Assembly (NCBI GenBank): GCA_949372645.1
Contig: CASIAP010000011.1
Span: forward strand, 1-64,000
Direction of reading: 5' to 3'
DNA from: Candidatus Poseidoniaceae archaeon
GTDB taxonomy: Archaea; Thermoplasmatota; Poseidoniia; Poseidoniales; Poseidoniaceae
Length of the DNA stretch: 64,000 nt
The notes under the pieces are model-generated. The model made no database searches. It was not told the DNA's origin and saw only the letters and a program-made list of their open reading frames with translations. Every line of letters starts with the position of its first letter. Position 1 is the stretch's first letter. Positions 10,844 through 61,427 of the stretch are shown here, one piece after another. The translations under genes and the position numbers were made by a program.

Positions 10844-11060
10844 TCATTTGGTCATTGCATCAACGTACTGCCATCCGAAGTGGTTCCATTGATCTTGAGT
10901 CCATCCCTGGGGCAAGCCAGTAGGTGGAATTGGTGGAGGGGCACGTTGTGCTGGTGAATCATTAGGAACTGAACCGTTCAAGGCATTCGGGATTCCACCC
11001 ACAGCACTGTCAGAGATGTTATCGGTGGTATTCTGAACGACGTTAGGGGATGCCTGAAGA
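10844..11060 (-). pseudogene. Displaced C-terminal tail of the 1783-residue surface protein
   Basis: A minus-strand frame here continues the large surface protein after its premature TAA at 11043. It is rich in Asn, Ser and Pro, then has a Pro run and ends GWTQDQWNHFGWQY followed by VDAMTK. This end is the Gly-Trp-Thr ... Gln-Trp ... Gly ... Tyr tail common on membrane-anchored surface proteins of this lineage. Dropping one base near 11055 (for example one G of TCAGGC) makes both parts a single frame. Either a recent frameshift, a sequence error, or a tail lost in this strain. The long minus-strand frame that contains it begins at 11113, inside the other gene, and is not separately meaningful. 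Confidence 0.65.
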
Positions 11061-19400: not shown

Positions 19401-22215
19401 ATTCGCAAAGATTCACAAGTCCATCTCGGTCTGCATCCCAGTTTGCATCTTCGGCTCGATTAGGATCGAGAGTCCAATTATTACCTCCATTAAATGAAGA
19501 TCCAACCCAGCGCCGATGCTGAATTTCCCACCCATCTGGCATACCATCGCCATCACTGTCGAAGTTTGTAGGATCTGTTCCTTGGTCACTGCTTGAAAGG
19601 CCGAGGTAAGTCGCATTAGCTGCTTGTCCTGCCGCATCATCACAAATATATTCCATTTGAACAGAATAATGGCACCAAAGGTTTGAATCTTGATAAAAGA
19701 AGCCGAAATATTCGCTACCATCTCCCAAACCATCTCCATCGGTATCACCGACTTTGGGGTTGGTAGAATTGTAGCCATTGAGAGATTGGGTCACATAACG
19801 GTATTCATCGAGATTCGTCCACAGACGTTCCAAGAATCCATCGCTGTCTTGGTCAAGGTCGATTCCATCGGTGTCGGCATCGAAGAGTGAATCCCATGGA
19901 TCGGTCGGATCCAATCCATTGGCAACCTCCCAGCCATCGGGCATTCCATCATTATCAGAATCATTTGCACCGGGATTCATCAATTCCAAATTTGCATATT
20001 GGCCTGGTGAAGAACCAGTAAATACGGTCGTATTTCCTTCAATTGTCATCGTTTGGAGAGTCACTAATTCTCCAAAAACATCTTCTTGAGCTTGGAGACC
20101 ATAGACCGCGGAATAATCTCCTGAAATGGCCCATAGACCCTTGTCTGAACCGATGAGAATCTCATCACCAGTTGGATGGATTGAGTGAACGTTATTGTAT
20201 TCGCGAACATAACGACCATCAATGCCTGGGTGTTCGAGTAACCCACTGTGGGAAATCGAATTATCTAAGAGGCTCATCTTGTGAACTCCAGATGGGGTGC
20301 CGAACCACAAAACCTGTGCATTGGATAGAGTCGGACCAGCGAGTGACATTGTTCGAACATTGGCAGGATTCGCAACCATACCGAGAGAGAGCGAACGTAA
20401 TTCCTCGATAGAGGTTGGATAAGGAGTGACTTCTGGAGAGTAATAAAATCGCCATGCCAATTCAAAATTACCACGTGCAGTGGATGTTTCGCCAAATAAC
20501 AATCCTCGGTCAGTTCCTACATACAATGTATTATTTCCACCACCTGCTGGACCATGAGCAATAGACGTAACCATAGCCTGCGATTGGCTTAGTGCGGTGC
20601 TGAGGCTTATAGCAATCTCATATTGCTCAGTAATTTGAGCAGAGGTGGTGATTTCATACACACCACCTTCGCCTGATTGACCTAAGCCAAGCACGAGTTG
20701 ATTTTGGTTATTGGTGTTTAGGAGTGAAAGAGCAAATATTTCCTCGGAGAGTGACCAGTCCCAAGTAGTGAGTGCGGCAAGATTGCCATCTTCTTGAAGT
20801 GGGGCAACTGCTAAGCCAATGTTCGTGGCAATTGCTAAGGCAAAGGGAGAGCCATCAACTGCGAGAAGTAACGATTCATGTAATTCAACACCTTGCGGCA
20901 TCCAATGGTCATAACTGATCATTTGGTCATAGTCAAAAACAGTCATTCCATAACGAGTGGTTGCATACAACATTGTACCGTCTTCATCGAGGTCGCGTAT
21001 ATCATGATGTATGAGGCTCATCTCATCGGCTGGTGAAAGATAGCTCAACGGTACATATTCATGAGTGTCGAGTTGATTACCAAGTAAAACCGTTTTAAGA
21101 CCGGGGAGAACAGAGTTCCCATTATCATTGTGAACAAAATATTCTTCCAATGTTGAAAGTGATTCACCTAAAGCAATCGCAGTCAGTGTGCGACTCACAT
21201 CGGGTGAAACGCCACCATCACGGTTCGCATCCCATCCATCGAGGTCGGGGTCGAGCAAAGCGTTGGTTCGGTTCAGGGGTTCTAGACCGAAATGGACTTC
21301 CCATCCATCCGGAATCCCGTCTCCAAAAGAGGGAAACAAGCGTCGAATCGAAAATCCATCCCAATGATAGCGGTCAGAGTCTGCTAGCAAAGGATCGGTC
21401 CCCAGCCAGAGGTCTTCATCGATCACCATGGATGCATTTTCAGTACAAGCAGAGAGCAAATTCTTGAATGTTGCATTTGGCCCTGTTGGAATAAATGGCC
21501 AGTTCTTGAAGACTGATCCATCTGGCAAAGTTGCTGAGCACCACATTCCATCTAATTCAGTCGTGTGAGTCAATGGTGCACCTTGAATATATTCTTCAGG
21601 TGAAGAAAACCGTTCGGATGTAGATAACACCCCGTCTCGATTGACGTCAAACCCATCTTCATCAGGATCATCATACAAATCAGAGCCGTTCAATGGGTCA
21701 AAGCTCTTACATTCATATTTCAAAGAAACAGAATTGTAACCACCAAGACGTTCACACATGTATGCCTCATAGCCATCGGGCATTCCGTCACCATCAGTAT
21801 CGGACATACGAGGGTCGAGATAACTCCTTTCACCCAAGTCATTGACTTCTCCAGTCAATCCCCGCGGGAATCCAGGTGACGTACAATTTGCGGGATAAGG
21901 CCAACAATACTCTTCGGTGGCATTCAAGCCATCATGGTCTTGGTCGGTAAAAGCATCTGAAGCATTGTTGCTGTCCATCCCCTGCATAACGATGGCACGA
22001 CCATCAATAGTGCTCCAATTCATCCATTCTTCAAACAGGTTTTCATGAACGTCCGGTATTTTGTCTCCATCGGAATCAGTGGTAGGTGGCTTAGAACCAT
22101 CCGTCGTATCCGGATGGAGGTTCGAAACCGGCGAAATAGAAGGGAATTGCGACATGAACAGTAAACTTGCAACAACTGCAAGAGTGGTTAGAAGAGTGGT
22201 TAAACTACGACGCAT
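16462..22215 (-). CDS. Giant secreted thrombospondin type 3 repeat protein with inserted beta-propeller (1917 aa)
   Basis: Signal peptide in about the first 28 residues, then arrays of Asp-rich calcium-binding TSP3 repeats such as DTDGDGMPDGYE and DSDGDGMPDGWE. The repeats recur with spacers of 60-110 residues that often contain W...NPL...D and N..EY, so the true unit is larger than the Asp motif. Between about residues 365 and 745 the repeats are interrupted by a propeller-like domain with seven or so strands of the type LYATTRYGMTVF, TNIGLAVAPL, LYVGTDRGLLF and ILIGSDKGLWAI. The protein ends after a last TSP3 motif with no membrane helix, lipobox or sorting signal that I can see. It is probably a calcium-stiffened adhesin or scaffold held by a partner, perhaps the adjacent 1783-residue anchored protein. 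Confidence 0.88.
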   Translation of the reverse strand: MRRSLTTLLTTLAVVASLLFMSQFPSISPVSNLHPDTTDGSKPPTTDSDGDKIPDVHENLFEEWMNWSTIDGRAIVMQGMDSNNASDAFTDQDHDGLNATEEYCWPYPANCTSPGFPRGLTGEVNDLGERSYLDPRMSDTDGDGMPDGYEAYMCERLGGYNSVSLKYECKSFDPLNGSDLYDDPDEDGFDVNRDGVLSTSERFSSPEEYIQGAPLTHTTELDGMWCSATLPDGSVFKNWPFIPTGPNATFKNLLSACTENASMVIDEDLWLGTDPLLADSDRYHWDGFSIRRLFPSFGDGIPDGWEVHFGLEPLNRTNALLDPDLDGWDANRDGGVSPDVSRTLTAIALGESLSTLEEYFVHNDNGNSVLPGLKTVLLGNQLDTHEYVPLSYLSPADEMSLIHHDIRDLDEDGTMLYATTRYGMTVFDYDQMISYDHWMPQGVELHESLLLAVDGSPFALAIATNIGLAVAPLQEDGNLAALTTWDWSLSEEIFALSLLNTNNQNQLVLGLGQSGEGGVYEITTSAQITEQYEIAISLSTALSQSQAMVTSIAHGPAGGGNNTLYVGTDRGLLFGETSTARGNFELAWRFYYSPEVTPYPTSIEELRSLSLGMVANPANVRTMSLAGPTLSNAQVLWFGTPSGVHKMSLLDNSISHSGLLEHPGIDGRYVREYNNVHSIHPTGDEILIGSDKGLWAISGDYSAVYGLQAQEDVFGELVTLQTMTIEGNTTVFTGSSPGQYANLELMNPGANDSDNDGMPDGWEVANGLDPTDPWDSLFDADTDGIDLDQDSDGFLERLWTNLDEYRYVTQSLNGYNSTNPKVGDTDGDGLGDGSEYFGFFYQDSNLWCHYSVQMEYICDDAAGQAANATYLGLSSSDQGTDPTNFDSDGDGMPDGWEIQHRRWVGSSFNGGNNWTLDPNRAEDANWDADRDGLVNLCEYQWSLVRGAALEGLLFESHGESVNSSREWFEADPNNIDSDGDSLPDGWESGGACTWDPSRQGVNPLNASDLFENPDGDGYDINHNGVLEDSEAFVNYLEFHIRSDLFSGNQTLAGEPLPNGFSTDLFANISDYGLPEENFGDRASGSVTALQTLTNIGSADPFDADSDSDGMPDGWEIWFARWNVLDDAWTLNPLDSADRWEDADDDGMANWEEYNSISPLLSETDQNRTAPQWFVTTVGSAFALQQWPGYTFENSFGSFISSDQINLTGLTSDPNNIDTDGDGMIDGIEQLFTTWNFTAETWTLNPLVPDDGGFDGDGDGLTDSQEFAIAIENPVNGLDHPSDAPLLHLDGDIQQPTEKAQRVFNILITKETRGKRLLTDFNDWQAGVPPNAILSTLLGMTDPTNPDTDDDGMFDGFEYWFTEWDLEENRWSMNPLIDSDVNLDTDGDSFDCDGDGNISVDERFSNLREWESRTYGKYISRFSVPADQGFIGFGDDAINAYIEELGMTFEQAQQALYTDFVSKSQSSADRMVLINEFDEDNFNRTLLGVADPTNIDSDSDGIEDGWEYCYAIYGMEDVSTINHWASNPLNPWDVNYDGDHDGWYDRSSFDQPAQQGAWSGRTFTPASAPIQPGIGDLPFTNWMEWDNLTRPDLNDSDEDSISYSTVVSNGVVVYHQQDFNLSDGREVFKYGINPSDNDTDGDMLPDWFEYSKAWNESNDNFSSLLPIRVVWIDAMTGGACTTDTDSCLPLSQQGSEGILSRPDLSLTWFTMNPADPLDANYDPDQDGNWDCTGAGCVYEPYTNFQEFYGITDSDLSSPNAVRLSGMIYGGEIVLEWWQLRAALLKLDSAGVSSENYLKMDKSFNSDIRFAYLVDDKDTNFLVLDSNDDEIYLAGNRTDAWDIYYVGSPNTAPVRAVGEHEFGWYLLDLDNDHIAEGSDPMNWDTDGDWMVDWFEVHDDEEDGIRGDSSPIRYDSRQTG

Positions 22216-34296: not shown

Positions 34297-35517
34297 TTAA
34301 CACGGGGAGGTCTGAGTCGCCAGGTCTTGATACCAATCCCAAGCCTGGAGTTGACCATATCCCCAATGGTCATCATGTTCAACGGAATCCTCATACTTGA
34401 GTGAGGAATTCCTCAGAGAAGATTTTACGAGGTCAATACATTCTCCATTTGATGATGAAGTCGGTTTGTATTCTGGAAATGCTTCGAGAAGTAACGACAA
34501 TGCACCTGTCACAAAAACAGTCGAATCTGAAGTTCCACTGCTCGAGTACCAACTGTCACCAAGACCAGTGCTAATGATACCTACACCCGGTGCTATGACT
34601 TCTGGTTTCAAGTGAGGGTTTTGGCGGAGCGTTCCATCAGGCATAACTTGTGATCCTGCTGATGAATTTACCCATACCGTTTGTTCTTGTGTTGATGCTC
34701 CAACAGTAATCACACGTGGAACATTTCCTGGTACTGAGACCAAGCCGTCATCTGAACCACCACCGTCGTTACCTGCAGCAGCGACGACAAAAATGCCTGA
34801 ATCAACCGCACGTCGTACTGCAGAAACGCTCGCCCCCTCAGTTTGCATTTCGATGTTTTGTTCCCCCCCAAGAGAAAGTGAAATGATATCTGCTTGGAAG
34901 ACATCCTGGCACCACTGAATGGCATTCGCAACAGTTTGTTCAGAACCACTGTTCAGATCATTCTCATCCGCACCCAAGGCAGCCACCATTGCCAGGGAAA
35001 TATTCGGGGCAATACCCAATTGGTGATTTCCAGAGACCAGAATTCCTGCCATGAGAGTGCCGTGGGAAATAAAACCATAATCGATGGGTGCGTTCGAACT
35101 ACCGATCATATCTTTGAAAGTCACGTCGACTTCAGAGAAAGCAGGGTTACTCAAATCAATACCCGTATCTACCATACAAACTTTCACCCCAGAACCAGTA
35201 AGATCGAATTCCGAAAAGTCATTGAATTGAGATTGCTCATTCGCCCATTCTGATTTTGGTGGCGACAACTCGAGAAACAAGAGCCCTGAATTCCATACAA
35301 CAAGTAAGATTATGACAAGGATTGCAAATACAGCACCATTGGTTGCAAGAACTCTTCTGCGTCGCAAACGTGGCATAGGTATGGCATCCAAAGGAGCCCA
35401 TCCCGTAACTTCTGCACGCCAGCTGTCCTGAAAACCAACTGCCGAGGGGTCAATGGCTGAAAGTATGTGTGGATCATTAGGTTCTGGAAGCAATTCCAAG
35501 TTCTCAATTCCCTTCAT
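34297..35517 (-). CDS. Membrane-anchored subtilisin-like serine protease (S8)
   Basis: A 406-residue protein with a cytosolic N-terminus of about 57 residues, a single membrane helix (about 58-83) preceded by RLRRRR, and an external S8 protease domain. Catalytic residues are all visible: Asp117 in CMVDTGID, His152 in SHGTLMAG, the oxyanion Asn250 in AAAGNDGG and Ser330 in SSGTSDST. The usual GTSMATPH is changed to GTSDSTVFVTGA, but Ser remains. There is no propeptide of the inhibitor_I9 kind and no secretion signal, so this is a type II anchored form. It likely trims surface proteins or digests peptides at the cell surface. Its gene lies directly downstream of the giant oligosaccharyltransferase on the same strand, with 70 bp between. 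Confidence 0.92.
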   Translation of the reverse strand: MKGIENLELLPEPNDPHILSAIDPSAVGFQDSWRAEVTGWAPLDAIPMPRLRRRRVLATNGAVFAILVIILLVVWNSGLLFLELSPPKSEWANEQSQFNDFSEFDLTGSGVKVCMVDTGIDLSNPAFSEVDVTFKDMIGSSNAPIDYGFISHGTLMAGILVSGNHQLGIAPNISLAMVAALGADENDLNSGSEQTVANAIQWCQDVFQADIISLSLGGEQNIEMQTEGASVSAVRRAVDSGIFVVAAAGNDGGGSDDGLVSVPGNVPRVITVGASTQEQTVWVNSSAGSQVMPDGTLRQNPHLKPEVIAPGVGIISTGLGDSWYSSSGTSDSTVFVTGALSLLLEAFPEYKPTSSSNGECIDLVKSSLRNSSLKYEDSVEHDDHWGYGQLQAWDWYQDLATQTSPC

Positions 35518-35587: not shown

Positions 35588-38500
35588 TCAGAATCTATTT
35601 GAAGAAGATTTCGCACGAGAAACTCGAATTCCACCGTAAATCACTAGACCGCCGAGTATGGCAATAGCCACAGTAAACCATGGTGTTGATTTCGATTCAA
35701 CAGTGATGTAATATTCGATCGAGAAGTCAATGGTTTTATCTTCTCCACCGATACCAATTTCCTGAGTCACTTGTGAACTCTCATCGCCAGCAACCTCGAC
35801 ACGGACTTCAAATCGAACGGTATTCGATGAATCTTCTGCAAGTAAATCAAACTCAACATTCGTTGTAGCATTTGGATTGAGCGTAATCGTCTGTGAACCG
35901 AGAGACTTACCGTCAACGATACTTGCAGATACAACCACATTCGAGCTTCCGAGGAAACCAAGGTTCGTGACCGGAATCACAAGTTGGCCAGCTGAGTCCG
36001 CTACGTTGTCGGAAAGAGTTACGATATCACCTTGGTCAATGAAAAGTTCAATGCTCGCTTTGGTGATTGACACATTGAATGAATCCGTAAAAATACCATC
36101 TTCACTGGTGACAGTTACGGTCACTTTCTTGGTACCCGAAGTAAAGTCATCAGATGAATAAGCGGTAAACATTTGCGAGCGACTGCCGGTCTTTGGAATG
36201 TTGATGGCTGAAGTCATTGGAGTGACTTCCCAACCTTCAGGGATGTTATCCGAGAGTTCAATGGTAAACAAGTCATCACCGTTCCCAGTGTTTTCGAGCA
36301 TGAAGCTGAATGAACCACTTCCTCCTGTTCCAATTCCAATTTCAGTGACAACATCACTGAACTTAAATCCATAGATTTGTGGAATTTGGACCGAAACAGC
36401 AATTTCACTGGAAGGTGTTGAGTCGGTATCCAAGCGAACCTTAAGTGTGTGTGGATCTTCCAAATGCCATGCATCAGACTGGTTTGGTGCGAGGATTCGT
36501 ACGCTGAGAACTGCAGAAGACTCTACACTCGTATCGTTAGAATTATTACCAATTCCGAGTGAAAGTTCATACGATTCGACATACTCAGTTCCATTCCAGA
36601 ATTCTACCTTCCAGTTTGCTTCGTCTGGTGAGACACCTACGAGGCCAAGAACATCGAAGACTTGGACAGTTTCTGTGCCATCATAGCTTATGTTCAAATC
36701 AAACTCAATGGCTTGGTAAGCTACATCGTTTTCGATTGCAATGAACTCAAGGTCAGAGTCCTCAACAGATGTTGCATTCATCATACTTCCTTCAACAAGA
36801 GTTATTGAGGTATCAGAGTTGATTGTACGTGTGTATGAAAGAGTGACTGGGGAACGACCCTCGGCAACTTGAGTTACAGCACCACCGATATATCCCATTT
36901 CCAAGCCCATACTATGCTGGAGAGTGATGAACGAAGAATCCATCTCAATTTGTTCAGAAGGCATGAGAATACTGATACTACCATCAGTCCCTACAGGCAT
37001 ATCCCATTCTATCTCGGAACCTACTGCGAAAGTAACCGATACCGATTCATTCAGCAGACCAGAGCCATTACTAACAGAACCGGCATGGTATTCATTCAGG
37101 CCAATATCAGTCCAAGTTGTTGTCAAATCAATCCAGCCACCAAGACTCATCTCGAGATCGAGTGTGGCCCCATCCGAAATACTTGCATCGAGTAAGCCGA
37201 CAGCGACACCGCCACCATTGGCTCCAGCATCTGCTTCAGTAACGATGACAATCCACTTACCAGGTGCAATGACTGCAGACCAAGTAAGTTGGTCATTGGC
37301 AAATACAGGAGTTACGGTTTGAGATTCTCCAGCCATACCGCTTGTTGGATAAAGAGTAACTGTCGAACCATTCAATCGACTCGCATCATTAATGTCGGTC
37401 ACATTTCCTGAGACACTAACATTTCCTGCAGTTATTTCAATATCGTGTGATTCAGGATCAGAGTGAACTGGATAAGCACTCGAGTTCGAGAGGTTGTAGA
37501 CCTCAGTACTGAATCCTTCTTTACTGACAGTGACTTGATAGTCATCTTCAATTGGAACAAACAGAGACCAAACTCCGTATTCATTTGTTGTTACGTTTGT
37601 ATCGACCAGGGTATTGTTGCCAAGAATCGTCACTGTTGCATTCGCAACACCTTCGGTTCCATCAGGAATGTCATCATCATCGAGATCCCAGAAGACCTTG
37701 CCACTGATTTCGACTTCAAGTTCTGCGAAAATTTTCTCAAGGTTGATGATACCATCCTCGGATAATGAGGGTGGGTAGGGTGTCGAAGAGGTGTCGAGAG
37801 TCCACTGGCGTTGAGGTGTTGTTTCGTTGAGGAATAAACTCCAGTTTCCTGGCATCAATTGTTCGCTAACATTGCCATATGAATCTGACTTTGAAAGCGT
37901 AATATTGCCAAGTCCATCATGACTTACAAGAGTCACACGAATTCCAGACATATTTTCCTTGGTTGTGTTCTCTTGAAGTTGGAACTTGAATTCAATCACT
38001 TCAACGCATGATAAATTCAAGCCCATTCGAACTGATAAATCGTCGCCAACTGTGAAAGCAGAACGGAGTGTTTCAGTACTGTCATTCGTCGCAAAGAATG
38101 GTGCAACAATCGCGACCCAGTCCCCTGTAGGGACGTAAGAAGCAAAACTACCGTTCACATCAGATTCGATATTCAACCACAAATCATCAGCTTCATTTCG
38201 GAGCAAGAATTGCTTCTCAATAGCATCGCCGCTAGAGTTTGTAAGTTCTCCAGTAACCAAGTATTCATTACGAAGTGGGAACGATAAAGCTTCTTCATAT
38301 GCATCAAGTCCGATCAAAACAGGTTCAAACGGCTCTGATCCGACGAGAATATAATCTGAGGCATTCTCACCATCCGCATCTGTTACGTTGAACTGTAGGC
38401 TATACACTCCCGGCTCAAGTATGACGGTAATATTACCAGCAGATGAATAATTATCTGCAGTGTAATTGTGTTGTTGACCGTGATTGTTCAGTGGCACAAG

Positions 38501-41500
38501 AGTGAATGCAGGGCTCACTGCAGTCCCATTGGCAAAGACACCATCTGCGCCAGCATCCATAAAGAGGTTGAGTTCAATGGTAAGATAGTCTGGATAAACA
38601 AACATTTCAATAATGTTTGTAAGCAATTCTTCGGAAACCACAACATTGTAATTGTCAAGTGTTGTCGAATTCAATGCTTCGTCCTCAACACTGAAATCCC
38701 AATCACCTGCTTGTAGATTAAAGATGAATGTCCCGGTATCTGAGATAGTGGTTCTCCATTCGAGACCATCTGTGTCTGTGGCTACGACTGTTTGGGCACT
38801 GTAGCCAGGTACATCGCCATCCCAAAGGGAATTATTATCGTAAAGGTAAACAAATCCAGACACTGCAGTCGTTGGTTCAAGATACATGAGGCCATTATCA
38901 AGTTCTTCATCCCCAGTAAGCTCAATTAATTGACCACCAGACATTTGTGAAGTTATGCTGAAGGTTGTCATGTGGAAGGTGTTACCGCTCGGTAGACGAA
39001 TACTGTAAGTGCCATTCGTAGCTACTTTGGTCGTGAATGTCAAGTCATTTGCAACAAAGCTAATGTCCAGACCTGATGCTGATTCACTTTGTTCGAACTT
39101 TAAATTGTCTTCTTGCGAATTCCATTCAGTATGATTAATCATGCCGTCCCCCTTATCCATGACACGAATAGTGCCATTAACCCAAGTACCAATTGCATAA
39201 GTACTGTTCATGGAGATATCTTCTGAATCAAGGTCTACAGAATCAAACAAAATGTATTCATCTCCGTTTTCATCTGAAATCATATACGACCCCATCGGCA
39301 ATTCAATGTAAACAAGTCCGTTCTCGTCTGAAGTAGAATTAATTGGTCCAAACATTGGATCTTTGTTTGTGAACGTTACAACTCTTCCGGCGATATCAGT
39401 GTATGCTTCCTGAGTAATATCGTCAATTTCGGAATTCAGTTGTAATGAGATATCATACAAATCCGGGACATCCATCAACAAGCTGAAGTTTTCTGAATCA
39501 TCTCGAACCAAAAAGGTATAATTCAATTCATACCAACCATCATTGTCAACGTCCACGCGGTAATAATACTCACCTGCAGACATAGGGCCATAGGAAAAGT
39601 TACCGTTTTCATCCGTAAGGATGAGAGCCGCTTGTTCAACACCAAATTCAAGATCGACTAATTCAATCGTTTCATTTGCGTATGGTTCGTTGAAGAAATC
39701 TACCAACGTGTCTTCAAAGATTGAACCCGGCATAGTCATTGCCAAATCATATGAAGGTGTGATCTCAACGTTCACTGGATCTGGTAAAAGAACTTCCTTA
39801 CCGTTCTCCAATTGAGCAATCATGTTGTAGACTCCTGGAAGCAATCCAGTGATGTAGAATGAACCTGGCTGGACCATTGGTCCAGAGAAATCGCCAGGAC
39901 CGACAAACAGACCAGTACCATTGAGGGTTCCGGTTCCCTCAAAGGAACCTGTAGCTTCAAACGAGTCACCAGAGTGATCGGTAATCAATGTGGAAATTCC
40001 GTCAGAGGTTAGTCGGCCGTTTGCTTCTACTTCACCTTCGAGGAGATAGACCATTGGAGAGGCTGAAGCATCTTGAATACAGAGTGTTTCATTCGCAGGC
40101 ATTGGAGCTGTTTCGTTATCGAGACAGGAAACGACACTTTGGTTCGCAACCCATGATGCAACAAGAGACCCTTTACCGTTCCAAGTTCCATTGCTTGTGT
40201 AAACACGATTGTCTGCAATCGAACGAGTAAAGGTTCCAGTAAAATCATCTGCAAAGGCAACGCCATTGCTTTCGAAGGTTCCATTTTCAGTGAAGGTTAC
40301 TTCACCAGTTCCTTGTAGGATACGAGTGTCTTCAGATGAGAATGAACCATTGGTTGTCGTGAGCGTGTAGTTTTCAGTCATCGACCAAATGTTACGCAGG
40401 ATGAAATCAGTACTGACTAGTGCATCCCCGTTAAACGACTCATGGCCAGTCCATGTGACTTGGCCAGAAACACCACTGCTTTCAACAGCGATGTTGAATG
40501 GAGTTGTAGCATCGGCATCAGGTGCACGGTCTGCTTGTTCTGCGGTAATGTTGAGTTGAGATTCGCCAAGCCAGCTCATGTTTGCAACTTCACCAAGAAT
40601 TGCGGTGATGTCATTGGTTTGACGGTCATCGTTATTCTCGGTAAGAATATCCCCGAGGCCTTGCGAGAAAGCGCCAGAACGGATGTTATCTTGAGCTGCT
40701 ATTGGGTTGTAATCACCAGCATATGCACTCACACGGATACGACCGGCAGGTGCATCGAATGACCAATGTCCATTTTCATCTGCATCGGTGAAACCAATCG
40801 GAACCCAATAGGTATCCGGATCTAAATCCTCAGGACCTTCACCAGAGAAAGCGTCACGCTCAATCAGCAATCGAACACCAGATAATCCTTGGCCGTTATC
40901 ACTCATAGTGACTTGACCTGAAATCTCTGCTCCAGAGTAATACTTGAGAATCTTGACAAGTGTGTTGGTCGATGAGATACTGGTGGTTTGTTGTTCTGCT
41001 GTGACTGAACTGTTCGCTTCAGGTGAATACCAATTAGCAATAACAAAATGGTTTTGCATAGCACCAGGCAGTGGAAGAGCTTGGCTGAGAACACTACCAG
41101 GGCTACCTGATTGACCGAAGTGCTGTGCAGGTTGAGGGTTAGACGAGCCTGAATCGACACCGAGTGAAGAGGCTCCGTAACCGACATAGGTCCGTGCAAG
41201 CATGGTGTCAAAGAAGGCTGGGTTGTGGTCAACTCGGACATCTTGTACTTGTAATGGATCAATATCTGCACCAGATTGTTGATTCAGGAAGTCTTCAGTA
41301 ATTGCTTGGTCGACTTCTTCACGACTCATTTCATCCGGGAATTCACCACGCATAGTTTCGTACACTTCATCCATGTAGGTGGAGATATCTTGTCCACTCA
41401 AAATGGTAGGTGCACCGAAAATACCCATTGGTTGACCTTGATTATAATTCATGTCTTCAGTGTATCGACCAGCACGAGGGTATAATCTGTTATCGATTGC

Positions 41501-44500
41501 GAAGTATCGGATTTCGTGGTCACGTTCAATCATGTCACCTGGAGCACCGTTGTAATCTTGGACGGAATAATATCCTTCCATATTAATCAAATCATCATAC
41601 ATGTCGATGATTTGTCCGTCATCAAGTGTGTGTGAGAGTAATTGAACGGTCAATGAAAGACGTGTGTTCTTACGGTGAATGTTCGTGGCGACTGAATCGT
41701 ATTCTTCAATAAGATCTGCTGTGTACCAGTAATCTCCAATGATATAGTGAGTGGTATCAACAACTGTATCATCACCTGTACGGATGTTAGAGTTGAAGGC
41801 ACGCTCTGCTTCAGAGAGTTCAGACCAGTCCTCATCGACACATGTTGCCGAGAGAGCTGCAGTACAGAGTAGACGTTCGCCACCATCGTAAATACGCCAG
41901 TATTGTGTCGATGAGTCAAATATGCCATCGGTTTGGTGATGGCCGACTGCCATCACGACATCGTCATTGGTTTGGAACACTTCGAAACTGCTCAATTGTG
42001 CTAGTGCGATGGTGTCTTCGTGGTTATAATTTGTAGAAATGGTCGAAAAGAGCTCCATTTGCTCTTCCCCGAGATAGGATCCCACGATATTGCTGTATCC
42101 TGCGGTGAAAGCAGTCTCATCTGTACGTGCTTGGTTATATTGGATGTCACCTTGACCGAGTTGCCAGATAAACATCGAAACGAGGTCTTCTTGGTTGCGT
42201 GCAAGTAACATGTTTCCGGAAGCAGGGATTCCAGATTGGAAGTTATCAGAAACGGATGGATGCTCGCCCGTATCGAGTGCTTGGAAACCATAGTCCCACC
42301 AAGATACAAATGCTGGGCGCTCAGAGTATTCCATCTCGGTATCTTGAGCTGCAAGCCATTCATACGCAGAGTTCCAACCATTATCATTGAATCCAGAGCC
42401 GAACGAACCGAGATACCAGTTCCCATCATAAGCACTGTCATCAAGAAGTGAGAATCCAGCGATTTCCCATCGGAATGCATCAGGGATGAGGTTGTAAATA
42501 ACTTCATCAATCTCATCTTCAGCATTGTTACTGCCAGGAATGGCAGCATCAAGGCCGTAAGTAAATTGTTGCCCAAGAAGCATAACCATGATGAGCATGA
42601 TTGCAGAGAAGGACGGTGTACGCCAGACTGCAATTCGAGCTCCACGGATACGGTCTTCAGGAGAGCGGATTCCAAGTTTCTTCCAAGTCTTCACCAAACC
42701 GCCCCAATTTGCCCACTTCCATAGAGATACAATTCCCCAAGCACCGAGAACGGCGATTGCTGGTGTAGCATTGAACATGAATCGAGCTGCAGTCCAAGCC
42801 ATGAATGAAGCGGCAAGAATCCAAACACCAAACACGAGGTTTGTTTGCTTGCGTTGACGAAGAGCCGACCAAAGGCAAAGAACACCCGTGATCAAAGAGA
42901 GAACGAAAGTAATCGGTCCAAATTGAGCAAAGAGTTGCCCACGATCTGGTGCGTTTGCTTCAGCAACCGTTCCGAAAATCTTTGTCTTTGTGAAATAGCC
43001 ACTACCGGTAAACAAGACGTCCCATGCGTTTGAGATATTTGCTTGCTTGAGAAGCCAAAGTGCCAAGAAGAACACAGCACCAGCGCCAGCAAGTACGCCT
43101 AAGATAAGCAACCAAGGCTTGTCACGGAATCCGGTTGTTACAAAGCTAATAGCCAAAGTAAATCCGATGATAAACAAGAACGGTTGAAGACCGGTTCCGT
43201 TGAGGATAAGATCAATTTGTGGATGACCATAGAATGGAAGTGCCATCAAGAAATTTACCATGAGCATGGTCAAGAACAATACATTCAGTGTGGTTGAGTC
43301 ACGGCGGCGGAACATGTTGAGAGCAACTTGTGCAGCATATGCCAAGAACAGAATCGATGGTCCTACTACGAAACCTTTCCAACCGAGTGAAACGATACCG
43401 AAGCTAACACCTGCCAAAACTGCGGCAGCAAAAGCAGCCTTTCGTTGTTCGATAACTGCAGAAATTGAGGCAATGAAAGCCATTGGTGTTGCTGATGAAC
43501 TGCGAATCAATCGCTCTGTTCCAGCATACTTGACTGCTCGTAACCAAAACATGAACCCAAGCGTAAGGAACAGCATGATGAAACCATCGTGGTCTGCAAG
43601 AGCCCAGGTTGTGTGGCTCACGTGTGCAGGCATAAAAGCGAGAAGCCATGCAGCGATAACTGCTGCCTTTGGACCAATATGCTCCCGTGCAATAGCTGCA
43701 ACTGGCAAAATAGTAAGTGCGCCGTAAATAGCAGGTAGAGAAAGAATAGCCCACCAAACTGCATCACCGTCTGCAAAGAACGGCTCAAGCAACATTGCAA
43801 CCACAGCAATTGACCAGGTGAACAATGGAGGTCGAGGGTTGATTCCACCGACGGGGTAGAAACGGTCAGCATCAACGATCATGTGAGCGTTATTTGCAAG
43901 AATATAGTCAACAACCCGCTTCATGTACCAAGGGTCAGAACCACCAGTCATGTCCCAGTTTCCAGTCCCGTATGCATTCATCGAAGGCACAACATACCAT
44001 TGTGTTCGAATAACAAGACCAAAGAAGAAAGCAAGTCCAATCATGACACCTGCCCAATGTTGGTTCCAGAATAAACGAGCACCTGAGTATTCATGTTCTT
44101 CACGGTTAACCCATCCGCCCCATGAATCATGAGTGGAGATGGAATAAATTGCGACACCGATAAAGAATGTAATTCCGAGCCAGATGAGACTTCCCCAGCT
44201 ACCATTCAACATGTCAACGGAGAACATGCCAGCATCATACCATGTCGAGACCAAATACAAGGTCCACAATGATCCGAGAGTCATTGCACGTGTATGCCAG
44301 CGTTCTGCAAACATACCTGCAACAATTAGAGCAACCATACCGGTGAAGAAGGCGGACCAGTAGCCAAAGTGACCGTGGTAACCTTCAACAGTTGTGATTC
44401 CAAGTTTGTCTGCCACAGATACTGTGTCGAAGTGCCAAAGACTTCCGATGTGAGCAAGGGCCCAAACACCGAGAGCGATCTGAAGAGGTAGATTCTTCTT

Positions 44501-45166
44501 GTTGAATGCTGAGGTGCTTTCGCTGTTCAAGAAACTGAACCAACCAACTTCGCCGACCGGTGTCAAAATGCCACGCGTGAAAGTAGCAACAAGTGTTCCA
44601 ACAAGCGTGAAGAGCGTCAGAGAGGAAAAGAATTGGTATCCCACTGCCTGATACTTCAAATTCAAAGTCGATACAAAGCTTGCCTGTTCTTCGGGAGCAG
44701 CTAAGTTGTAAATCTCTGGTAGATTGGCAAGAGCATCTCCTGCCAAAATCATTCCAAGATTGACACCAACGGCCATGAAGATGATGATGGTTGCAAGTTC
44801 ATGACGGCCGCGAGCAGTCATGAAGTGAACGCCAAAGGTGACAAGTGCGAACAAGAGTCCGGCGAATGCACCATAATCCTGCATGTAGATGATTTCCGCA
44901 CCGATTAGAGCAGTAGCCAGCGTTAAGAGGGAGATTGTGGCTTTTGAGAGGTTTGCGGATTCGGACTTTTCGAGCATTGATGGGAGAAGTCCCAAAATGC
45001 TTGCAACGATGACGAAAATCATCGGCGTCAGGTTGTCTACATCAAGTGCGAAGGTGACTCCAGCTAGCTTGATGGCTGCGATGGCGAGCAGAACTGCAAG
45101 GGGGGCGATAAGCCATCCAAGCGGTGCTGCTGGCGCGGTGCGTGTTGTGCCAGTTTTTTGTTCCAT
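35588..45166 (-). CDS. aglB: Giant oligosaccharyltransferase AglB/STT3 with extra N-terminal membrane module and long surface domains (3192 aa)
   Basis: The catalytic subunit that moves a lipid-linked glycan to Asn in N-x-S/T of exported proteins. Residues about 15-350 add roughly ten membrane helices before the STT3 core. The core starts near 370: SDPWYMKR (Asp411) with VDADRFYPVGG and RPPLF (about 430-449), ADHDGF at 524-529, TVAE at 733-736, ARFMFNATPA near 794, and WWDYG at 956-960. These cover the metal-binding acidic residues, the TIXE-type motif and the sequon-binding motif. After the usual globular domain (to about 1450) come about 1,700 residues of carboxypeptidase-regulatory-like and Ig-like repeats and a NEW3/CARDB-like stretch, then a final helix (about 3163-3183) with a short basic tail. 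Normal AglB is 600-1000 residues. One uninterrupted frame. Confidence 0.92.
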   Translation of the reverse strand: MEQKTGTTRTAPAAPLGWLIAPLAVLLAIAAIKLAGVTFALDVDNLTPMIFVIVASILGLLPSMLEKSESANLSKATISLLTLATALIGAEIIYMQDYGAFAGLLFALVTFGVHFMTARGRHELATIIIFMAVGVNLGMILAGDALANLPEIYNLAAPEEQASFVSTLNLKYQAVGYQFFSSLTLFTLVGTLVATFTRGILTPVGEVGWFSFLNSESTSAFNKKNLPLQIALGVWALAHIGSLWHFDTVSVADKLGITTVEGYHGHFGYWSAFFTGMVALIVAGMFAERWHTRAMTLGSLWTLYLVSTWYDAGMFSVDMLNGSWGSLIWLGITFFIGVAIYSISTHDSWGGWVNREEHEYSGARLFWNQHWAGVMIGLAFFFGLVIRTQWYVVPSMNAYGTGNWDMTGGSDPWYMKRVVDYILANNAHMIVDADRFYPVGGINPRPPLFTWSIAVVAMLLEPFFADGDAVWWAILSLPAIYGALTILPVAAIAREHIGPKAAVIAAWLLAFMPAHVSHTTWALADHDGFIMLFLTLGFMFWLRAVKYAGTERLIRSSSATPMAFIASISAVIEQRKAAFAAAVLAGVSFGIVSLGWKGFVVGPSILFLAYAAQVALNMFRRRDSTTLNVLFLTMLMVNFLMALPFYGHPQIDLILNGTGLQPFLFIIGFTLAISFVTTGFRDKPWLLILGVLAGAGAVFFLALWLLKQANISNAWDVLFTGSGYFTKTKIFGTVAEANAPDRGQLFAQFGPITFVLSLITGVLCLWSALRQRKQTNLVFGVWILAASFMAWTAARFMFNATPAIAVLGAWGIVSLWKWANWGGLVKTWKKLGIRSPEDRIRGARIAVWRTPSFSAIMLIMVMLLGQQFTYGLDAAIPGSNNAEDEIDEVIYNLIPDAFRWEIAGFSLLDDSAYDGNWYLGSFGSGFNDNGWNSAYEWLAAQDTEMEYSERPAFVSWWDYGFQALDTGEHPSVSDNFQSGIPASGNMLLARNQEDLVSMFIWQLGQGDIQYNQARTDETAFTAGYSNIVGSYLGEEQMELFSTISTNYNHEDTIALAQLSSFEVFQTNDDVVMAVGHHQTDGIFDSSTQYWRIYDGGERLLCTAALSATCVDEDWSELSEAERAFNSNIRTGDDTVVDTTHYIIGDYWYTADLIEEYDSVATNIHRKNTRLSLTVQLLSHTLDDGQIIDMYDDLINMEGYYSVQDYNGAPGDMIERDHEIRYFAIDNRLYPRAGRYTEDMNYNQGQPMGIFGAPTILSGQDISTYMDEVYETMRGEFPDEMSREEVDQAITEDFLNQQSGADIDPLQVQDVRVDHNPAFFDTMLARTYVGYGASSLGVDSGSSNPQPAQHFGQSGSPGSVLSQALPLPGAMQNHFVIANWYSPEANSSVTAEQQTTSISSTNTLVKILKYYSGAEISGQVTMSDNGQGLSGVRLLIERDAFSGEGPEDLDPDTYWVPIGFTDADENGHWSFDAPAGRIRVSAYAGDYNPIAAQDNIRSGAFSQGLGDILTENNDDRQTNDITAILGEVANMSWLGESQLNITAEQADRAPDADATTPFNIAVESSGVSGQVTWTGHESFNGDALVSTDFILRNIWSMTENYTLTTTNGSFSSEDTRILQGTGEVTFTENGTFESNGVAFADDFTGTFTRSIADNRVYTSNGTWNGKGSLVASWVANQSVVSCLDNETAPMPANETLCIQDASASPMVYLLEGEVEANGRLTSDGISTLITDHSGDSFEATGSFEGTGTLNGTGLFVGPGDFSGPMVQPGSFYITGLLPGVYNMIAQLENGKEVLLPDPVNVEITPSYDLAMTMPGSIFEDTLVDFFNEPYANETIELVDLEFGVEQAALILTDENGNFSYGPMSAGEYYYRVDVDNDGWYELNYTFLVRDDSENFSLLMDVPDLYDISLQLNSEIDDITQEAYTDIAGRVVTFTNKDPMFGPINSTSDENGLVYIELPMGSYMISDENGDEYILFDSVDLDSEDISMNSTYAIGTWVNGTIRVMDKGDGMINHTEWNSQEDNLKFEQSESASGLDISFVANDLTFTTKVATNGTYSIRLPSGNTFHMTTFSITSQMSGGQLIELTGDEELDNGLMYLEPTTAVSGFVYLYDNNSLWDGDVPGYSAQTVVATDTDGLEWRTTISDTGTFIFNLQAGDWDFSVEDEALNSTTLDNYNVVVSEELLTNIIEMFVYPDYLTIELNLFMDAGADGVFANGTAVSPAFTLVPLNNHGQQHNYTADNYSSAGNITVILEPGVYSLQFNVTDADGENASDYILVGSEPFEPVLIGLDAYEEALSFPLRNEYLVTGELTNSSGDAIEKQFLLRNEADDLWLNIESDVNGSFASYVPTGDWVAIVAPFFATNDSTETLRSAFTVGDDLSVRMGLNLSCVEVIEFKFQLQENTTKENMSGIRVTLVSHDGLGNITLSKSDSYGNVSEQLMPGNWSLFLNETTPQRQWTLDTSSTPYPPSLSEDGIINLEKIFAELEVEISGKVFWDLDDDDIPDGTEGVANATVTILGNNTLVDTNVTTNEYGVWSLFVPIEDDYQVTVSKEGFSTEVYNLSNSSAYPVHSDPESHDIEITAGNVSVSGNVTDINDASRLNGSTVTLYPTSGMAGESQTVTPVFANDQLTWSAVIAPGKWIVIVTEADAGANGGGVAVGLLDASISDGATLDLEMSLGGWIDLTTTWTDIGLNEYHAGSVSNGSGLLNESVSVTFAVGSEIEWDMPVGTDGSISILMPSEQIEMDSSFITLQHSMGLEMGYIGGAVTQVAEGRSPVTLSYTRTINSDTSITLVEGSMMNATSVEDSDLEFIAIENDVAYQAIEFDLNISYDGTETVQVFDVLGLVGVSPDEANWKVEFWNGTEYVESYELSLGIGNNSNDTSVESSAVLSVRILAPNQSDAWHLEDPHTLKVRLDTDSTPSSEIAVSVQIPQIYGFKFSDVVTEIGIGTGGSGSFSFMLENTGNGDDLFTIELSDNIPEGWEVTPMTSAINIPKTGSRSQMFTAYSSDDFTSGTKKVTVTVTSEDGIFTDSFNVSITKASIELFIDQGDIVTLSDNVADSAGQLVIPVTNLGFLGSSNVVVSASIVDGKSLGSQTITLNPNATTNVEFDLLAEDSSNTVRFEVRVEVAGDESSQVTQEIGIGGEDKTIDFSIEYYITVESKSTPWFTVAIAILGGLVIYGGIRVSRAKSSSNRF

Positions 45167-56471: not shown

Positions 56472-59400
56472 ATGCCCCTTGACCGAACCCATAGACTGTT
56501 GGTGAACACCATGAATGCCGTATTCCGCTCCCTCAGCCTCGCAGCCCTTATGATTCTCTCAACAATGGTTCCTTTTGGAGTTTCATCTCTTGAAGAGACC
56601 ATTGATGCTTCATCCACTTCAAGTCGTTCATTGGCTTGTACAGGCGATATTTGTCTTAACGAAGCTCTACCGAATCCAAATGGCTACGATAATGCCAGTT
56701 GGCCGGGTGGCGAATGGGTGGAGATTCATAACTCGGGAAATACAACAGTCGATGTTCGAGATTGGTATTTGACCAATAAGGCAGCCAAAGTATTGACTTT
56801 CGATTTGAACTCCATTGTTGATTATGATGCTGCAGATGCGACCAGTTGGGAAATTGAACCGGATGAATACATGGTGATTGCACGAAATGGATTGCCAAGT
56901 TCGGTCTTCTATCTTGCAAATACCAATGATATCATCTCGTTGTTCAATTCTTCAGGTGTTCAACTGGACCAAGCAACATGGACGTTCACCTCCTCCGGGG
57001 CGCCTTCTGGCACCAGTCTTGAAGAAGACAGCCTGAGTGCCACTGGAGATTGGGTTGCCACCAATGGACCAACACCAGGTGCAATCAATACAGGTGCCTC
57101 AACTGGTGGTCCAACCGTGTATCCCTCGGACTTAGTCATCAATGAAGTAATGTCGAACCCTTGGCCATCGAACGATAACGCTACATGGCCTGGTGGCGAA
57201 TGGATTGAAATTTACAACTCAGGAATGACTTCGATGGACTTGACTGGATGGTCACTCGAAGATGCTGCAGGAAATGCTCTTGACTTTAACGCCAACCACC
57301 TTGTTGGATACTCAAATGATTCAAACTCGACCAGTATCGCTCCTGGTGATACACGAATCATCGCAGTCAACGGCTCTGGTAATTCCGGAGTTTTGAACAA
57401 TGGTGTGGAAACATTGTCATTGCTTTGGCCAAACGGAACCAAAGCACAGCAAATTACCTGGACTGATACCGAAGCAGGATTCTCACTCGTCGAAAGTACG
57501 TCTTCACAATATTGGGCCTATGCTGCATACCCAACTCCTAATGCCAGTAATCCCTTAGATTTCTCAGTTATTGCTTCAACACCCTCTCCAATTGAATTTG
57601 CAGAATTATTATCCAACAGCAGCTTGGATGGTTCTGCATTCCCCGATGGTGAGTGGATTGAATTGCTCAACACTGGAAATACTACAGTGGATTTGTCGGG
57701 TTGGTCAGTCATTGATGGCATGGGGAACGTCACCTACCTCGATCCAGGTTCACTTGTCTTCAACCAAACACAGGGTTCAACTTCAATAGATGCGGAAGGT
57801 CGACGCCTGATTCAATTCAATACAGGTACGGAATTATGGGATTACTATAACCAACTTATGCTCCGTGATTCGACAGGAATGATTGTTGACTCTGCTTGGT
57901 ACACGACTGATTACGGTCAAAATGTTTCACTGGTTCCTGCCGAAGTTGATGCTGACCCTTGGATTCCTTCGAATGGGATGACACCTGGCCAGCCAGAACT
58001 TGAACAATCACCTTCAACTGGCCTCGTGATTTTCACCGAAGTCTTCCCAGATGCGGTCGGAAGTGATTCACAACAATGGCCACTTGGGGAATGGCTTGAA
58101 ATCTATAATAATGGCGCAACTGCTCTCGATGTGAGTGGATGGAAATTGCAGGCTGCTGGTCGTTCATTGACCCTTCACCAATTCAACATGCCTCTACAAT
58201 CGACCGCAATGATTCAACCGGGTGAAGTAGCACTGATTGCCTTAAACGGAACAACGAGTTTCTACCTCAAACACACGACACCAGACACGATTACTTTACT
58301 CGATGGGGACGGTAACGTGGTTGATACAATCGCTTGGACCTCAACGGTTGAAGGTGAATCATTGATTGCTCCAAACAGCACCCATGCAGGTGCTGGACCG
58401 CTTGGCACTGGTGCTTCAAACGGCAGTGATTGGATTCAATCTGCTTGGATGACACCCGGTGAACTCAACCCTGTGTGGCCAATGTATTCCGGAACTCACG
58501 ACTTAGTTGTCACTGAAATTTTAGCATACTGCAAGGATGACTCTGTGGAACCTCTGGAAGATTGGATTGAAGTCATGAACAACGGTACAATCGAGCTTAA
58601 TTTGAGCCGTTGGAGAATCGATACAAATGATGGAGATCGTCGCTTTTTCAGAACCATATCCATGTGGAATCAGTCCGATGACTCGATGTTACTCGCCCCT
58701 CAAGAGCGTGCAGTTCTCCTCATGGAGAAAAATGTAATCTCAGGTATGGGAGACCAATTACAACTCTCGGACCCAGATGGAACTCCAGTACAATCTGCAC
58801 AATGGAATATTGTCAGCGACTGCCAAACAATGGGACCTGGCGAGGCCGAACAGGACGGGTGGCAGTTACTCCTTTGGCCTACACCAGGCTATGAGGAACC
58901 TGATGCAACAATCTTTGCTGAGGCACAAGATATCATCTTTAGCCGCTTTATGCCCGAAGGCTCAACTACCATTTCAACCAATACAGAATTCATTGAAATC
59001 ACCAACATTGGAGACAATCTGGCTTACATGAATGGATGGATGTTCACACTCACGAATTCAGCAAATGAGGCCACCGATTATTCCTTTGGTGAGATCACGA
59101 TTCCCTCCAACGAATCAATCATTCTTGCATCTGATCCAAACGGTCTTTCTGTTTATGAAGATGGAACGATTATTGGATTTGATTCTGCTATGACCATATC
59201 GGGGCTTTCACTGCCAAATTCCGGTGCAACACTTCAGATCATGACTCCCAACGGTATCCTCGCAGATACAGTCGTCTACGGGAATGGACCTGTAGAAGTC
59301 GAAGGATGGAGCGGAATCAGTTTGGTCGAACCTGTCGCAAGCCTTTCCCTGCTGGTCTACCATCGAGGTGACGGTTGTGGCAATTTGCCCGATACTGATG

Positions 59401-61427
59401 TTGCCTTGGATTGGCAACATCGCTGGGGACGATTGGGAGCAAGTACCTTCTGTGGACCAACTCTGTTTTCGGGCACGAGTACGGTCACCCCGTTGATTGG
59501 TCCTCAAGATGGCTTGGTTGACTTGGTTGCATGGATTGACAATGCCAATGAATCATTGCACGTTCACCTGTATCATATCGAACAGCCAAATTTAGTTCAA
59601 GCACTTATTGAAGCTCATAACCGAGGCGTTGAAGTAACCGTTGTTCTCAACTATGCAGAATATTGGTGGAACAACTATGACAAGAACAATCAGATTGGCA
59701 CGGCAAATATACTTGCAACAGCTGGAATTGACACCTTCTGGTTTGGTGGACAAAATGATGAACCCTATAGCTACCTCCACAGTAAAATCGCTGTACGAGA
59801 CAATGAAAGTGTCTGGATTGGTTCAGGAAACTGGAAGAGTTCATCACAGCCAGCACCCGACGAGCGTGGAAATTCCGAATGGGGAGTCATCATACACAAT
59901 GCTGACCTTGCTCAAAAGGTATTGACTCAGATTACCTATGATGAATCTTCCAGTCGAACCTACATCACCCAAATCATTCCGGGCTCTGCTCCAACTGATT
60001 GGTCGATGGATTCACTCAGAAATCTTGTCAATGGCACAACGGCTGAACCGATTACGACCAATGTGTCAGGTCGGCTCATTACTTGCCCAGACACCTGTAT
60101 TGACGGCCTAGTCTGGATGATTGAGCAAGCAGATGAAGAGATTTTGTTATCCTTACAATACCTTGATGTTGATTGGAGTTGGGGCTGGGGAGACAATCCG
60201 ATTGTTACTGCTCTGGAAAATGCTGCTCAAAATGGAATTCGAATACGATTAATTTTGAACGGGGCTTATCTCGACAAAGATATTCAAGAAGTTGTTGATA
60301 CCTTCAATGAAGAATGGAACTCGACCCTTGGATATGACATCAATGCAATTGTCATGAGTGAGGATGATGAAGTATCCAAACTGCATAACAAAGGCATGAT
60401 TGTTGACGCTGAGCATGTTCTGATCTCATCAATTAACTGGGGAGATTCTGCAACAACCCGTAACCGTGAGATGGGACTCATTCTCACGAGCGCAGAAGTG
60501 ACGGCTCCTTTCCTTGCTGGATGGTATCGTGATTGGGTTCGTACTGACAATGTAACGGACACAGATAACGATGGACTGCCTGATTATTGGGAAGTCGCAA
60601 ATGGACTCAACCGAACGACTCGAACTCTCACTGCCCAAAATATTCTTGAAGGCGACTATGATGCTGATGGCGACGGGTTACTGAATAAAATCGAGTATAT
60701 CTTTGGCAGCCATGCAACCAATGCCGATACAGATGGAGATTGCATACCTGATGCAGTTGAAGTCTCTTGGGCGCAATCAACTGCTCTAGATTCAACGGTT
60801 GAGGATGTATCTCCAACATCAGCATTGACACTTGCAGATGCAGATGGTGATGGTGTGAACGAATCAGAAGCCCTTGGATGTGACCTTGGTGGTATACTCA
60901 CGGAAGAGAATCAGACAACGATCGACAACAGTACATTGGATGATGATGGGGATGAAGTCATCAATCGTGATGATGACTGTCCAAATACCGTTGCGGGTAT
61001 TCCGGTTGACGGAAAGGGTTGTTCAACAGAACAACGTAATTCAAATGCCGCACCAAGTGCAGATTCGAGTTCGAGTTTTGGCACTGACATGATGTTTTTC
61101 TTCATGCTAGCTGGTGTCATATTAGCGGCTGGTGCATTCTATATCTTGAGGAATATCGAAAGTGAGGGAGAAGAAGTCAAGGATTTAATTACCCTTGAAA
61201 GTGCAAACCTTGATGCGCTTGCTGGTTCGACAATCGATGCAGGCAACTGGGATATGCCCGTTCTCGATGGAAGTGGAGCAGCACCCAAAACGTCTGGACT
61301 TTCACCCGAACAACTTGCTCTTTGCCCTGGATGGCCTGAGGCCACGATTCAATCGTATCTTGACCAAGGATGGTCGATTGAGCAATTAGGTGAATACTAT
61401 CAAGAACAGGTCAAGGAACACGCTTGA
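56472..61427 (+). CDS. Surface lamin-tail / phospholipase D / TSP3 protein (1651 aa)
   Basis: Signal peptide in the first 40 residues (a start at ATG 56511 with GGTGA upstream would also fit). Six lamin-tail domains follow, each with a form of GEWIEIYNSGxxxxDLxGW, starting near 60, 220, 372, 517, 677 and 817. A phospholipase D fold then has both HKD motifs: HSKIAVRD at about 1103 and HNKGMIVD at about 1305, each followed by GSGNW or SSINW. Two TSP3 regions (about 1365-1420 and 1450-1520) lead to a membrane helix near 1540-1560 and a tail with CPGWPEATIQ and YLDQGWSIEQLGEYY. PLD enzymes with both HKDs hydrolyse phosphodiesters; secreted ones include nucleases. The lamin-tail domains fit binding of nucleic acid or surface. 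Confidence 0.88.
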   Translation: MPLDRTHRLLVNTMNAVFRSLSLAALMILSTMVPFGVSSLEETIDASSTSSRSLACTGDICLNEALPNPNGYDNASWPGGEWVEIHNSGNTTVDVRDWYLTNKAAKVLTFDLNSIVDYDAADATSWEIEPDEYMVIARNGLPSSVFYLANTNDIISLFNSSGVQLDQATWTFTSSGAPSGTSLEEDSLSATGDWVATNGPTPGAINTGASTGGPTVYPSDLVINEVMSNPWPSNDNATWPGGEWIEIYNSGMTSMDLTGWSLEDAAGNALDFNANHLVGYSNDSNSTSIAPGDTRIIAVNGSGNSGVLNNGVETLSLLWPNGTKAQQITWTDTEAGFSLVESTSSQYWAYAAYPTPNASNPLDFSVIASTPSPIEFAELLSNSSLDGSAFPDGEWIELLNTGNTTVDLSGWSVIDGMGNVTYLDPGSLVFNQTQGSTSIDAEGRRLIQFNTGTELWDYYNQLMLRDSTGMIVDSAWYTTDYGQNVSLVPAEVDADPWIPSNGMTPGQPELEQSPSTGLVIFTEVFPDAVGSDSQQWPLGEWLEIYNNGATALDVSGWKLQAAGRSLTLHQFNMPLQSTAMIQPGEVALIALNGTTSFYLKHTTPDTITLLDGDGNVVDTIAWTSTVEGESLIAPNSTHAGAGPLGTGASNGSDWIQSAWMTPGELNPVWPMYSGTHDLVVTEILAYCKDDSVEPLEDWIEVMNNGTIELNLSRWRIDTNDGDRRFFRTISMWNQSDDSMLLAPQERAVLLMEKNVISGMGDQLQLSDPDGTPVQSAQWNIVSDCQTMGPGEAEQDGWQLLLWPTPGYEEPDATIFAEAQDIIFSRFMPEGSTTISTNTEFIEITNIGDNLAYMNGWMFTLTNSANEATDYSFGEITIPSNESIILASDPNGLSVYEDGTIIGFDSAMTISGLSLPNSGATLQIMTPNGILADTVVYGNGPVEVEGWSGISLVEPVASLSLLVYHRGDGCGNLPDTDVALDWQHRWGRLGASTFCGPTLFSGTSTVTPLIGPQDGLVDLVAWIDNANESLHVHLYHIEQPNLVQALIEAHNRGVEVTVVLNYAEYWWNNYDKNNQIGTANILATAGIDTFWFGGQNDEPYSYLHSKIAVRDNESVWIGSGNWKSSSQPAPDERGNSEWGVIIHNADLAQKVLTQITYDESSSRTYITQIIPGSAPTDWSMDSLRNLVNGTTAEPITTNVSGRLITCPDTCIDGLVWMIEQADEEILLSLQYLDVDWSWGWGDNPIVTALENAAQNGIRIRLILNGAYLDKDIQEVVDTFNEEWNSTLGYDINAIVMSEDDEVSKLHNKGMIVDAEHVLISSINWGDSATTRNREMGLILTSAEVTAPFLAGWYRDWVRTDNVTDTDNDGLPDYWEVANGLNRTTRTLTAQNILEGDYDADGDGLLNKIEYIFGSHATNADTDGDCIPDAVEVSWAQSTALDSTVEDVSPTSALTLADADGDGVNESEALGCDLGGILTEENQTTIDNSTLDDDGDEVINRDDDCPNTVAGIPVDGKGCSTEQRNSNAAPSADSSSSFGTDMMFFFMLAGVILAAGAFYILRNIESEGEEVKDLITLESANLDALAGSTIDAGNWDMPVLDGSGAAPKTSGLSPEQLALCPGWPEATIQSYLDQGWSIEQLGEYYQEQVKEHA

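Follow-up and report, generated by a model that had tools for sequence, protein, structure and literature searches.

Our results show that throughout the archaeal order Poseidoniales the glycosylation enzyme AglB/STT3 exceeds the archaeal AglB of solved structure more than threefold in length, and that it carries a tail resembling the enzyme's own substrate. The gene was read in a stretch of 64,000 nucleotides from Candidatus Poseidoniaceae archaeon (assembly GCA_949372645.1, contig CASIAP010000011.1, positions 1-64,000; hereafter the window), where a single stop-free frame of 3,192 codons on the minus strand (35588..45166) encodes the complete protein of 3192 aa. It consists of a ten-helix N-terminal membrane module (N-module), a catalytic STT3 core, and an external tail with a second membrane anchor. 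The length of about 3,200 residues in Poseidoniales is due to the addition of the ten-helix N-terminal part and of the long external rod. The enzyme is a variant of the known AglB/STT3 whose membrane module is for now an orphan, and from sequence and predicted structure we lean towards a reading in which an ordinary AglB reaction would be combined with a self-glycosylated, doubly anchored arch and a cytosolic accessory N-module. In the surface ocean, Poseidoniales belong to the most abundant archaea, and to our knowledge little has been established about their cell surface. No paper on a giant AglB in Poseidoniales/Marine Group II was found in the openly accessible literature.

All parts of the protein lie on the minus strand. 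The N-module (residues 1-358; 44093..45166) holds ten transmembrane helices between residues 14 and 345, with both ends predicted to be cytosolic. It is followed by the STT3/AglB transmembrane catalytic domain (residues 361-880; 42527..44086) and by the external catalytic and adjoining domain (residues 881-1480; 40727..42526), in which sequons are few. The external tail (residues 1481-3159, about 1,680 residues; 35690..40726) strings together beta-sandwich domains of the transthyretin-like/CarboxypepD_reg and Ig-like kinds and carries about 55 N-X-S/T sequons; by hydropathy, Pfam, NCBIfam and motif searches it contains CarboxypepD_reg, CARDB-like and NOMO-like beta-sandwich domains, the best recognised being a Pfam CarboxypepD_reg domain (1e-13) at residues 2505-2557 (37496..37654). 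A C-terminal membrane anchor (residues 3160-3185; 35612..35689) and a short end complete the chain. The first-pass annotation, made from the sequence of the window, had described one frame with the motifs SDPW, ADHDGF, TVAE and WWDYG, about ten extra N-terminal helices at residues 15-350, and an end of about 1,700 residues of Ig-like and carboxypeptidase-regulatory-like repeats plus an anchor; all of this was borne out, with the motifs at residues 410, 524, 733 and 956, and the ten helices recovered in an AlphaFold2 model. The C-terminal residue is Phe (..RF or ..APF) in 20 of 21 Poseidoniales AglB sequences, after a variable basic stretch.

The core very likely acts as in known AglB, and would transfer glycans from a lipid carrier onto N-X-S/T sites of exported proteins; the use of N-X-S/T sites by Poseidoniales is something we infer from the sequences, the sequon enrichment of the tail giving only indirect support for such a transfer. 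Several lines of evidence support this assignment. First, Pfam PF02516 matches residues 408-667 (7e-14, 52.5 bits against a cut-off of 24.5), and NCBIfam archaeo_STT3 (TIGR04154) matches residues 375-993 at 1e-48, but its 166 bits lie below the 450-bit subfamily cut-off. Secondly, a profile of 72 Poseidoniales sequences aligned to Archaeoglobus fulgidus AglB places SDPW (residues 410-413; 43928..43939) on GGNDPWY, ADHDGF (residues 524-529; 43580..43597) on DHH, TVAE (residues 733-736; 42959..42970) as the counterpart of TIAE, and the acceptor-binding WWDYG (residues 956-960; 42287..42301) on WWDYG. The metal motifs SDPW and DHD, the TIXE/SVSE-type Glu of TVAE, and WWDYG are invariant across the 72 sequences. 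Thirdly, an AlphaFold2 model of residues 1-1190 (pTM 0.67, its catalytic loops being of low confidence) has the GT-C fold, with Foldseek E values of about 1e-9 to STT3A and AglB, and profile comparison against PDB likewise assigns the core to STT3/AglB. We did not locate the DK/MI motif of the acceptor side, and the external domain aligns poorly beyond WWDYG. The gene is the sole STT3 match, and thus the sole N-oligosaccharyltransferase match, in the source genome (estimated 84% complete). A. fulgidus AglB (PDB 3waj, 7e9s; 875 aa) has the same GT-C membrane core and the same metal and acceptor motifs, and is likewise a single-subunit enzyme, whereas the Poseidoniales protein adds a 358-residue N-module of ten helices, about 1,700 external residues and a second anchor.

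The two additions differ in age. We read 60 AglB loci from 31 Thermoplasmatota families. MGIII, the class-level sister (f3), and many further families have an AglB of 1,850-2,750 residues with a terminal anchor and a normal start only; other Thermoplasmatota families have AglBs of 900-1,430 residues lacking the anchor. The long forms of MGIII and about 16 further families share the core, a collinear tail and the terminal anchor with Poseidoniales; unlike Poseidoniales they have shorter tails and no N-module (two families, f13 and f20, carry an unrelated one). The earlier statement that the usual AglB is three to five times shorter applies to A. fulgidus AglB, but within Thermoplasmatota anchored forms of 2,000-2,750 aa are common. 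Tails of Poseidoniales and 15 tails of other Thermoplasmatota are collinear (hhalign 100%, E 5e-70, 1,093 columns), and profiles of segments agree. By script count the long form changes twice on a quick, midpoint-rooted tree of the core, and one of these changes is a row (f17b) cut at a contig end, so that one origin of the long form fits the tree. From these comparisons the anchored transthyretin-like/CarboxypepD_reg tail is old and common to many Thermoplasmatota, which fits a single origin.

The N-module profile, on the other hand, is present in 63 of 64 Poseidoniales genomes and in none of 179 others, always within the AglB frame save for short frames resembling contig fragments, and the module appears once on the core tree, on the Poseidoniales stem. 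Judged from these profiles and the tree, tail and N-module were acquired in separate events, the tail being an old feature shared among many Thermoplasmatota and the N-module one restricted to Poseidoniales. Aligning against relatives, a check proposed at first pass, thus found both additions conserved within Poseidoniales, of which only the tail is shared with other Thermoplasmatota. The same stem of the core tree displays an unusually large change in the core itself, about 1.04 substitutions per site. In two other families (f7 and f25; loci L102 and L119) the last AglB helix starts with PGF, after which come a hydrophobic stretch and arginines; we take this to resemble the archaeosortase PGF-CTERM signal, so that the tail may be cut and lipid-anchored there.

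The tail is strongly enriched in N-glycosylation sequons. In the window protein it contains 55 N-X-S/T motifs compared to 21.5 expected by shuffling (z 8.8, about 2.5-fold), and the reversed motif S/T-X-N occurs 22 times (21.7 expected). The external catalytic domain (881-1480) has one sequon against 4.6 expected, and z is only 0.1-3.3 for the large ORFs that neighbour the gene in the window. The tail z exceeds 3 in 20 of 21 Poseidoniales; pooled over the named loci, tails hold 3,196 sequons (1,252 expected; reversed motif 1,333), with ratios of 0.72-fold in the head and 1.09-fold in long flanking ORFs. Both the reversed-motif control and the flanking ORFs speak against an effect of composition, which is rejected. 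Sequons at 1539, 1749, 2213, 2447 and 2858 are kept in 17-20 of 21 sequences, at a tail identity of about 30%. This enrichment of N-X-S/T in the AglB tail is new here. Haloferax volcanii AglB is itself N-glycosylated, and likewise eukaryotic STT3 (PMC8241124).

Since sequons are enriched and the reversed motif lies near expectation, the tail is probably a glycoprotein modified by the enzyme's own activity. According to our reading the transthyretin-like domains would form a rod, heavily N-glycosylated by its own or by neighbouring copies and tied back to the membrane by the last helix, thus making a sugar-coated arch around the glycosylation site; we consider such a self- or neighbour-glycosylated arch likely. 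Several other families are sequon-enriched too, with about 90 sequons in each of the f13 and f20 tails. In the tails of the sister class MGIII sequons are barely enriched (z -0.1 to 3.3), and self-coating is therefore not universal among the long forms.

The domain content of the tail also brings a second function into consideration. Among solved structures, NOMO2 is the closest relative of the tails (E 1e-6 for Poseidoniales tails; E 1e-25, over several stretches, for a profile of non-Poseidoniales tails), and NOMO and EMC7 Pfam domains recur in AglB tails. NOMO is a transthyretin/prealbumin-like array with a C-terminal single-helix anchor, a layout that the tails seem to share. It is a subunit of the BOS complex in the eukaryotic multipass translocon (PDB 9c7v), and has been described as an array of prealbumin-like domains within the translocon complex (PMC11186639). 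From these likenesses it could be hypothesized that the tail serves chiefly as a docking scaffold at the site of export, as the eukaryotic translocon subunit does, and that the sugars only protect it. NOMO differs, however, in being a separate protein without an enzyme domain, and the likeness may reflect only a shared, generic domain family: transthyretin-like/CarboxypepD_reg arrays are generic, and adhesins, scaffoldins and carboxypeptidases also match the tails weakly. Because domains of this type are widespread, the likeness to NOMO should be interpreted as a lead that does not prove a shared function, and we regard a tail that is mainly a docking scaffold as possible, with the odds against it.

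For the N-terminal region the structure prediction suggested at first pass was run, and AlphaFold2 returned a model of ten helices (pLDDT 83, pTM 0.83). The charges of the loops fit an inside N-terminus, ten crossings and an inside C-terminus; with an even number of helices and the N-terminus inside, the topology of the core is unchanged and its active site stays outside. Conservation is biased towards the cytosolic side, where 27 of 171 positions are at least 90% conserved compared to 10 of 175 on the external side (Fisher p 0.003, a modest effect in a test that treats positions as independent). The positions conserved at this level include P62, E123, R198, W209, E288 and T292.

Searches for relatives of the module were consistently negative. 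No consistent Pfam or NCBIfam family was found, and the weak matches (Colicin_V, MacS and others) each occurred in one of 20 members and are attributed to chance. A fold search gave no PDB or BFVD match at E<=0.001 (best PDB E 0.15), and across Pfam, NCBIfam, PDB and BFVD neither sequence nor fold matched a known transporter, flippase or glycosyltransferase. The fold search covered PDB and BFVD, and predicted structures of cellular proteins may still include relatives of the fold. The readings of the module as a copy of the STT3 core or as an internal 5+5 repeat were rejected, with no profile match (hhalign probability 0.1-0.2%). Standalone genes for the module were likewise dismissed; there is one copy in the genome, and the short frames elsewhere look like contig fragments. 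With no detectable relative, the role of the module has to be read from its topology and conservation. Tentatively, and as the best of several options, we suggest that it is an accessory subunit fused in cis, working through its conserved cytosolic face, which would dock the enzyme to the protein-export machinery or to the supply of lipid-linked glycan, by analogy with the separate accessory subunits of the eukaryotic oligosaccharyltransferase.

The module could instead act on the donor directly, binding, scrambling or flipping the lipid-linked glycan and passing it to the fused core. Its ten helices adjoin an enzyme that uses lipid-linked glycan, and the invariant charged residues E123, R198 and E288 lie on the face predicted to be cytosolic, the side on which the donor is built. 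However, the module has no sequence or fold similarity to a solved flippase or transporter (best E 0.15, TM <0.3), and MGIII and most Thermoplasmatota manage without it, so that direct handling of the donor seems to us rather doubtful.

The accessory-subunit reading gains interest from a second fusion. AglB of f13 and f20, found in 3 of 194 Thermoplasmatota genomes, has a different multi-helix N-terminus (L105:2928-3731 and L112) that is 44% identical between the two families. Homology of the Poseidoniales module to these helices was rejected, with no profile match (probability 0.4%). Fusion of a multi-helix module to the AglB N-terminus thus appears to have happened at least twice independently, and its occurrence at the same end in two unrelated lineages suggests that there is a job which single-subunit oligosaccharyltransferases need done, as is met in eukaryotes by accessory subunits. 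With the giant AglB, what such subunits do can be tested in archaea. A further step would be to see the whole protein as matching, in one chain, the oligosaccharyltransferase-translocon assembly of eukaryotes, with the orphan ten-helix module as cytosolic docking subunit and the self-coated, NOMO-like rod as the external side of the export site; we think this unlikely.

It has also been proposed, in the first-pass annotation, that the enzyme is at the same time a structural surface protein. The strong sequon enrichment of the tail gives independent support to a surface protein as such. An abundant element of an S-layer-like lattice would in addition be consistent with a very large, sequon-rich and doubly anchored external region, but anchorage at two points in the membrane fits an arch more readily than a detached lattice, the protein showed no domain of lattice type, and the gene is present in a single copy. 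Moreover, a metatranscriptome study lists "oligosaccharyltransferase" only among the enriched genes of one genus, with the identity of the gene unstated (PMC9723583). We therefore hold the lattice to be improbable.

The 3,192-codon frame is real, and is neither a misassembly nor a strain-specific fusion. A match was found in 189 of 194 genomes of the order, in all 21 genera and both families, and frames that are not cut short are about 3,120-3,330 residues long; 58 of the 79 named loci have a complete frame of 3,145-3,321 aa. Gene order is also kept, with PurD upstream in 72 loci and a subtilase downstream in 62. One-frame forms with both additions occur in every Poseidoniales genus examined, as the sequences indicate for a single chain kept order-wide, and the arrangement named beforehand as refutation, separate genes for the three modules in relatives, was looked for in Poseidoniales and none was seen. 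That some relatives have shorter frames might favor a misassembly or local fusion, but frames below 3,000 aa at named loci are accounted for by a contig end in 13 cases, by N gaps in three and otherwise by one frameshift, and with architecture and synteny recurring in both families, and same-length frames throughout the order far beyond chance, this explanation is rejected as having a negligible probability.

Loci L221 (in G002, a single-contig genome of the window's genus) and L172 each display a single frame change, at about residues 1543 and 2000 respectively, in an otherwise continuous sequence; either errors of sequencing or genuine breaks could account for these. A record titled Deltaproteobacteria bacterium AH-558-G13 (L137) contains a clear Poseidoniales giant AglB with 57% identity to the query, and is probably mislabelled. 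In the window the subtilase (34297-35517, minus strand; Peptidase_S8, 1.6e-35) has an N-terminal membrane helix and is encoded on the same strand as AglB, starting 70 bases downstream of it; such a membrane-anchored protease could process surface proteins or cut the AglB chain. Elsewhere in the window two very large ORFs of 1,783 and 1,917 aa (11043-16394 and 16462-22215, both minus strand), with no or little Pfam signal, are probably surface proteins, and a protein of 1,651 aa (56472-61427, plus strand) contains six Lamin Tail Domain stretches and two phospholipase-D-like domains.
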